The notes below the pieces were generated by a model that made no database searches, was not told the origin of the DNA, and saw nothing but the letters and a program-made list of their open reading frames with translations. A DNA stretch of 64,000 bases from NCBI GenBank assembly GCA_035651655.1, contig DASRFG010000019.1, forward strand, positions 1 to 64,000, read 5' to 3'. Both the position numbers and the translations under genes were made by a program. How positions within the stretch are numbered: position 1 is the stretch's first letter; each line of letters starts with the position of its first letter. The DNA comes from Terriglobales bacterium. GTDB taxonomy: Bacteria; Acidobacteriota; Terriglobia; Terriglobales; Acidobacteriaceae. Below are positions 10,945-12,768 of the stretch, piece after piece.

Positions 10945-12084
10945 CTAATCTTTCAAAATCTGTCGCGCGATCACCAGCCTCTGAATCTCGCTCGTTCCTT
11001 CGCCAATGGTGCACAGCTTCACGTCGCGGTAAAACTTTTCCGCTGGATAATCCTTAATGAATCCATAGCCACCGTGAATCTGTACCCCTTCATTTGCGAC
11101 TCTAACAGCGACTTCGCTGGTGTAGAGCTTCGCCATGGACGACTCCAGAGTAGTCTTCATGCCGGCGTCTTTCATCGAGGCGGCTCGATAGGTGAGCATT
11201 CGGGCCGCATCAATTTCCGTCGCCATGTCCGCCAGTTTCCACTGGATTGCCTGAAAGTCGCTGATCGGGCGTCCAAATTGTTTGCGCTGCTTGGAATATT
11301 TGAGCGCCGCTTCGTACGCACCCTGCGCCATACCCAGCCCGAGGGCGGCAATCGAAATGCGCCCGCCGTCCAGGACTTGCATAGCATCAATGAAGCCGTC
11401 CCCTTCTTTGCCGAGTAAGTTTCCCGCTGGAATGCAGCAGTCTTCAAATATCAGTTCGGCGGTATCGCTGGCCCGCAGCCCGAGCTTGTTCTCTTTTTTG
11501 CCGGGACGAAATCCTTTTGTACCTTTCTCCACGATAAACGCCGAGAGCCCGTGGGTGTGGGCAGCCTTGTCGGTAACTGCGATCACCACCACCACGTCCG
11601 CATAGTGTCCGTTGGTGCAGAAGGTCTTAGTGCCATTCAGCACCCAGCAGTCTTTTTTGCGCAGGGCTGACATTCGTGCGCTTCCCGCGTCCGATCCGGA
11701 TCCCGGCTCCGTCAATCCCCAGGCCCCGATGGATTCTCCCGTGGCCAGCCTGGGAATGTATTTTTTCTTCTGCTCCTGGCTGCCCGCCAGGAAGATATGA
11801 TTGCTGCAGAGCGAGGTGTGCGCAGCCACGATGATTCCCACCGAGCCGTCCACACGCGACAGTTCCTCGATAGCGGTCACGTACTCCACATAGCCCATGC
11901 CGGCGCCGCCGTATTCCGGTGGAAAAATCGTGCCCAGCAGCCCCAGCTTCCCAAGTTCCTTGACGGTGGCCAGCGGGAACTCGCCAGCTTCGTCCCACTT
12001 CATTACGTTGGGCAGAATTTCGCGCTCGGCAAACTCGCGCACGCTCTTGCGCAGCTGCTGCTGCTCATCGTTGAGCTGAAAATC
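10945..12084 (-). CDS. Acyl-CoA dehydrogenase, short-chain/butyryl type
   Basis: This FAD-dependent enzyme introduces the trans-2 double bond into an acyl-CoA. Domain order is standard: N-terminal helical ([22 protein letters not shown]), beta domain with [18 protein letters not shown]-terminal helical with [21 protein letters not shown] and [34 protein letters not shown]. The catalytic base is expected as Glu in GEGTSE. I prefer the TTG at 12084, which follows GGAGGAG, over the TTG at 12117. The exact chain-length preference is not readable; branched-chain or butyryl substrates would fit the methylmalonyl-CoA neighbours. Confidence 0.92.
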
Positions 12085-12118
12085 CAAAAACTCCTCCCGG
12101 ACGCGTGAGGCTTGCAAC

Positions 12119-12247: not shown

Positions 12248-12472
12248 TTAAACCGCTTGAGCGGATTGCATGATCTCCGTGGCGGTGGGCATTCGTCCCG
12301 CTTGCTGCTTGGAGAACACGGTTTTTCCCTCCACGATTACGTCGAGTGATCCTAATCCGCCCATGCGGATTTTCACCTTCACTCCGGGGTTCTTTTCGAG
12401 CTCACGTTTCAGGCTCCCGGCCCGCTGTCGCGTGTCGGTTCACCAGAAACAACGCTTGATTTCAATGTTCAT
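12248..12472 (-). CDS. SelW/Rdx-family selenoprotein with in-frame UGA (CxxU)
   Basis: From the ATG at 12472 the frame reads MNIEIKRCFW, then TGA at 12442..12440, then TDTRQRAGSLKRELEKNPGV and on to TAA at 12248 (74 residues with UGA as residue 11). Reading UGA as selenocysteine gives Cys8-x-x-Sec11 after the first beta strand, followed by R..GSL..EL. The C-terminal half (GGLGSLDVIVEGKTVFSKQQ then AGRMPTATEI) fits the Rdx/SelW/SelT/SelH thioredoxin-like family, known to use CxxC or CxxU. The start overlaps the Mpo1-like stop as ATGA. A hairpin lies 5 bases after the UGA. The role is probably thiol/selenol redox with an unknown partner. It was missed as an ORF because of the UGA. Confidence 0.85.
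12403..12434 (-). promoter_or_regulatory. Candidate bacterial SECIS hairpin in selW
   Basis: Counting from the base after the UGA, bases 6-9 (CACG) pair with 34-37 (CGUG). Bases 16-20 (CGGGC) pair with 26-30 (GCCUG, one G-U). The apical loop CGGGA has several G, and a 6/3 internal loop separates the stems. The apical loop lies about 20 bases after the UGA, within the 16-37 range known for bacterial SECIS elements read by SelB. The pairing was found by eye; folding energy was not computed. Confidence 0.6.
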
Positions 12473-12750
12473 GCAGGCTTCTCTGTTCCTTGCCGTCGCA
12501 ATATCTTCTTCACCATCCACACCGGTGCCACAAAGACATGCGCAGGATTGCTCAGAAAGGCCGGCTTGTTGCCTTCAATAAGGTGGCCTAGCCAGGCCAG
12601 TGCAAACGCTGTCGGAATGAGCAGCACCGCAATGATGGGATGGAACCAGACCACAATTAATGAGGAAAACCCCAGCGGGATCGCCAGCATGTGCAGCGCC
12701 CGATTGACGGGATGATTATGTGCCCCGTCGTAATGCGAATAGAGACCCAT
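12469..12750 (-). CDS. Mpo1-like (DUF962/YGL010w) membrane protein
   Basis: The 93-aa protein carries the DUF962 signature YSHYDGAHNHPVNRALHMLAIPLGF near the N-terminus, with the conserved H-x2-N-x3-H pattern, and two hydrophobic helices. Yeast Mpo1 is a Fe(II) peroxidase/dioxygenase acting in alpha-oxidation of 2-hydroxy fatty acids; the bacterial members are largely uncharacterised. The ATG at 12750 has GGAGG five bases upstream; the TTG at 12762 is less likely. The stop overlaps the start of selW by 4 bp, implying translational coupling to the putative selenoprotein. Confidence 0.85.
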   Translation of the reverse strand: MGLYSHYDGAHNHPVNRALHMLAIPLGFSSLIVVWFHPIIAVLLIPTAFALAWLGHLIEGNKPAFLSNPAHVFVAPVWMVKKILRRQGTEKPA

Positions 12751-12768
12751 AGCAGCCTCCAATCAGCT

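Follow-up and report, generated by a model that had tools for sequence, protein, structure and literature searches.

A SelW/Rdx-family gene with an in-frame UGA

The minus strand at positions 12248-12472 of the window, the 64,000-nucleotide stretch of Terriglobales DNA analysed here, very probably encodes a selenocysteine (Sec)-containing, thioredoxin-fold redox protein of the SelW/Rdx (CxxU) family, with the UGA at codon 11 read as Sec. The evidence, all of it read from sequence, comprises the reading frame, its conservation in relatives, the Sec machinery of the genome, a candidate bSECIS hairpin and a predicted fold. Translation of the segment gives MNIEIKRCFW-U-TDTRQRAGSLKRELEKNPGVKVKIRMGGLGSLDVIVEGKTVFSKQQAGRMPTATEIMQSAQAV with exactly one in-frame TGA, which occupies the Sec position of a C8-F-W-U11 (CxxU) motif, exactly as proposed in an earlier sequence-only reading of this DNA. 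That reading also stated that standard ORF callers skip the gene, and it is indeed absent from the mechanical list of ORFs of at least 60 aa. Selenium use in the group is under-counted as a result of short genes of this kind being skipped by standard annotation. The gene and its neighbours are arranged as follows.

12248-12472, minus strand: SelW/Rdx-like gene, very probably a selenoprotein gene; 74 aa, MNIEIKRCFWU..., TAA stop
12440-12442, minus strand: in-frame TGA, putative Sec11 of CxxU; TGA in the same column in 27/27 clade genes keeping the motif
12449-12451, minus strand: TGT, Cys8, the partner Cys of CxxU; invariant in alignment A1
12469-12762, minus strand: upstream Mpo1-like (DUF962-type) gene; Pfam PF06127, 58.8 bits
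12769-13989, minus strand: upstream GntG/low-specificity threonine aldolase-like gene; NF041359, 426 bits; extent of the listed ORF, whose true start may lie further in
10945-12117, minus strand: downstream acyl-CoA dehydrogenase gene, by Pfam

Family membership and predicted fold

To place the protein in a family, we read through the UGA and compared the product with curated models. It scored 31.8 bits with Pfam Rdx (PF10262), whose cut-off is 22.6. The NCBIfam SelT/SelW/SelH models were also matched over the full length, all below their cut-offs; for TIGR02174 (CXXU_selWTH) the score was 29.6 bits against 34.2. The latter score is that of a divergent member compared with a curated model, with no structural feature missing. 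AlphaFold, run on the clade alignment, predicted a strand-helix-strand-strand-strand-helix order with a mean pLDDT of 90.6. The best solved structures in Foldseek were SelW-related proteins, with a TM-score of 0.84 to 2p0g_A and 0.70 to mouse SelW (2npb). A profile search recovered SelW-related proteins by sequence as well (2fa8 at 5.5e-11). The predicted fold is shared with 2p0g (Vibrio), 2fa8 (Agrobacterium) and 2npb at TM-scores of 0.70-0.85, whereas sequence identity to them is only ~20-24%.

The UGA is conserved in relatives

We searched 300 genomes of the same taxonomic family with a query carrying Cys at the Sec position, and 28 of them contained a match. The TGA falls in a single alignment column in 27 genes of one clade, the window gene included. 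The sequence after the UGA is under purifying selection: of 351 pairs, 346 show a pN lower than pS, and in the closest pair (L080 and L085) dN is 0.045 and dS 0.67 over this part. Despite the Cys-form query, none of the clade members detected in the 300 family genomes has Cys in place of Sec. The sequence-only reading had named loss of conservation after the UGA, or a TGC or TGT in place of the TGA, as findings that would speak against it. The downstream part is conserved, and a sequencing error is very unlikely because relatives carry TGA in the same column. One further match (L084) falls in the canonical SelW group. A search of plasmids with the selenoprotein sequence gave no match, and the one match from the contig scan, a short one in a Halomonas MAG covering residues 21-44, was disregarded.

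The genome carries the selenocysteine machinery

The presence of selA, selB, selC and selD had been proposed as a check, and all four were found in the window's genome: selA at 558 bits (cut-off 268), selB at 358 (cut-off 242), tRNA-Sec (selC) at 66.8 (cut-off 47) and selD at 361 (cut-off 125). ARAGORN called the tRNA as tRNA-SeC with anticodon TCA. For a second match above the tRNA-Sec cut-off (56.4 bits), the ARAGORN call was tRNA-Ile(TAT). Across the family, 26 of the 28 genomes matching the gene have selA above its cut-off, compared to 125 of the 272 without a match (Fisher p 6.5e-7, uncorrected for kinship). The two gene-matching genomes that gave no selA match both have selB above cut-off. 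The selD gene of the window's genome (L021:1501-2520, minus strand) itself contains exactly one in-frame TGA, in the context ...KAAGUASK..., where the active site of SelD normally has Sec or Cys. SelD is therefore probably a second selenoprotein of this genome.

A bSECIS-like hairpin follows the UGA

In the bSECIS model of PMC13188914, an apical loop of 3-9 nt with a G in its first two positions tops a stem of 4-16 bp, located 16-37 nt from the UGA, with a free energy of -7.5 kcal/mol or lower. The candidate in the window consists of two elements.

12410-12424, minus strand: core bSECIS-like hairpin, CGGGC (12424-12420), loop CGGGA (12419-12415), GCCUG (12414-12410); fits the model of PMC13188914
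12403-12432, minus strand: possible lower stem, in which 12432-12429 pairs with 12406-12403; -11.0 kcal/mol together with the upper stem

With 5 bp, the loop CGGGA (G at position 2) and a distance of 20 nt after the UGA, the candidate agrees with the model; its energy is within the limit with the lower stem (-11.0 kcal/mol), and the upper stem alone gives -6.8 kcal/mol. The lower stem is not conserved as such among relatives. Folding of the window copy as an isolated 48 nt favoured another structure (-14.4 vs -11.0 kcal/mol), with a probability of about 0.13 for the hairpin. Single-sequence folding showed no excess structure (z -0.24), a test that is uninformative, and Rfam returned nothing at gathering score for the window, which is neutral on the presence of a bSECIS. 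The hairpin that the sequence-only reading had placed at the right distance can be drawn at 12432-12403 and is supported by pairing in relatives, but another structure has the lowest energy in the isolated segment.

Over the 16 codons from the UGA, the minimum free energy of 34 genes was mildly below that of synonymous shuffles (mean z -1.06). A stronger test is the pairing of the specific hairpin. With the U of UGA as the starting point of the numbering, 16 of 27 genes form all of the pairs 19-33, 20-32, 21-31, 22-30 and 23-29. In total 110 of 135 pairs are formed in these genes compared to 79.5 +/- 4.6 when synonymous codons were shuffled within each gene (maximum 93 in 400 shuffles). In an alignment of 19 sequences, the share of cells that pair is 92.6%, and it falls to 9.5-42% when the partner is displaced by one to three columns. 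The outermost, closing pair is C-G in 12 of the 19, G-C in four and broken in three, and the G-C sequences are spread over two or more distinct branches of the tree (L066/L068/L074, and L073). On its 3' side this pair uses the last base of a Leu codon, and the choice between CTG and CTC tracks the opposite base. In some distant members of the clade the helix has to be shifted or bulged. Support for the putative hairpin comes from the relatives, through excess pairing and compensatory changes at the closing pair.

Other readings of the UGA

From the window's genome alone, a standard gene finder would stop at codon 11, as expected of a pseudogene or an assembly error in which TGA stands in place of TGC or TGT, the rest being a relic or the base miscalled. 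This explanation is already refuted in practice by the relatives: 26 of them, spread over many genera, share the TGA column and show purifying selection after it; the complete Sec machinery speaks against it too, and we give it a negligible probability. The earlier view that a stop-codon accident or a dead gene is unlikely is upheld by the same TGA column and the same selection. That the standard frame is open through the UGA would also suit its decoding as Cys or Trp, through suppression or a change of code. However, TGA terminates both the Mpo1-like and the aldolase gene, so UGA serves as a normal stop here, and a tRNA-Sec with selA and selB is present and co-occurs with the gene. Together with the bSECIS-like hairpin after the UGA, this makes such decoding just as hard to credit.

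Sec might also be inserted while the main role is non-enzymatic, either as a low-level selenium sink or as a regulatory UGA sensing the supply of selenium. The patchy occurrence of the gene (28 of 300 family genomes) is compatible with this idea, as is the lack of a known substrate or partner. In contrast, the conserved sequence after the UGA, the invariant Cys8 and UGA, and the complete, predicted SelW fold point to a working protein, and we consider a sink or sensor very improbable, if slightly less so than the two preceding explanations. Collectively, Sec insertion at UGA11, as we infer it from sequence, is very likely.

Gene neighbourhood and proposed mechanism

Neighbouring genes were counted within 1.5-kb flanks of the 28 clade loci, window included; given these short flanks, the counts are lower bounds. 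Of the 28 loci, 17 have a threonine-aldolase-like gene upstream and 18 an acyl-CoA dehydrogenase gene downstream. The start of the window gene overlaps the stop of the Mpo1-like gene as ATGA (12472-12469), as the sequence-only reading had noted, but the special link to Mpo1 that it raised is ruled out as incidental, since an Mpo1-like gene occurs in only 4 of the 28 loci (directly upstream in L057, L062, L067 and L070) and the next upstream gene varies. In L059, L061, L066, L069, L071, L073 and L082 this position is taken by a ~150-residue protein without an assigned identity, overlapping as ATGA in L059 and L061, and elsewhere by other genes. Close spacing or an ATGA overlap is often retained though the upstream gene varies, which suggests that the selenoprotein gene often comes last in a coupled arrangement whose upstream partner changes.

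In the mechanism that we propose, the ribosome coming from the upstream gene would re-initiate or couple where the two genes overlap as ATGA. SelA would make Sec-tRNA-Sec with selenophosphate supplied by SelD, and SelB, bound to the hairpin a short way past the UGA, would bring it to codon 11, after which translation would continue to the TAA. We expect Sec11 to act as the reactive selenolate, attacking a substrate that is oxidised or a peroxide. Cys8 would then resolve it as a selenenylsulfide, to be reduced by a cellular thiol system. By analogy with the CxxU family and the fold, this redox chemistry is likely; the physiological role of the selenoprotein, too, is an inference.

The RCxxU clade within the phylum

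An Rdx match is present in 116 of 396 genomes of the phylum, nearly always with one internal TGA, and most of these genes carry the motif YCxxUNYxPRA. Almost all SelW-like genes of other families of the phylum (L032-L053, L087-L100) likewise have TGA at the CxxU position and carry the canonical YCxxU motif. A few genes (L024-L031) have the Cys form, CxxC, and L024 comes from within the window's own family. Compared to the bacterial SELENOW-like selenoprotein (PF10262), the window protein has in common the Rdx domain, a CxxU with Sec second, a putative downstream bSECIS, a length of ~75 residues and a thioredoxin-like predicted fold. In contrast, its sub-clade reads (K/R)RCxxU rather than YCxxUNYxPRA and has one extra residue after Sec in the alignment. 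In a tree of 65 proteins, built on few columns and with unsure inner forks, the sub-clade forms one separate branch with 100/99 support and a length of 0.97.

A bacterial SELENOW-like selenoprotein was reportedly catalogued by Kryukov and Gladyshev in 2004. SELENOW-like CxxU selenoproteins (PF10262) have since been catalogued in bacteria (PMC1794560, PMC9312934, PMC13188914), with high confidence in PMC9312934 and PMC13188914, and the scarcity of Cys forms in Sec-using bacteria was noted already in 2006 (PMC1794560). We found no paper on the RCxxU sub-clade in the open-access literature. The description of the gene as undescribed therefore applies at most to this sub-clade: the part that seems to be new is an RCxxU group, well separated and all-Sec, within a SelW-like CxxU family already established in bacteria. 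It is possible, though we hold it only tentatively, that the clade is a functionally separate, undescribed selenoprotein subfamily with its own substrate, occurring only in the Sec form, restricted in our searches to one bacterial family plus one degenerate match in its order, and tied to a threonine-aldolase/acyl-CoA dehydrogenase neighbourhood.

One clade member, L082:1501-1734 (genome G411), reads MKIEIQTPLFPGDL... and has Pro in place of both Cys and Sec (QTPLFPGDL) in a frame that is open and alignable. Its genome keeps selA and selB, and its sister L073, of the same genus, retains CxxU. L082 is possibly a redox-dead SelW homologue. A clade without a Cys form in the searched genomes and with a member lacking both redox residues is a useful natural series, which could address the reason for the retention of Sec in SelW-like proteins and the targets of these proteins. 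In another family of the same order, L086:60-350 (G666) keeps the part after the helix start and seemingly lacks the CxxU end in frame; it lies near a contig end and is possibly a truncated or degraded copy. Two divergent TGA-containing clade copies, L063 and L085, occur together in one genome (G486).
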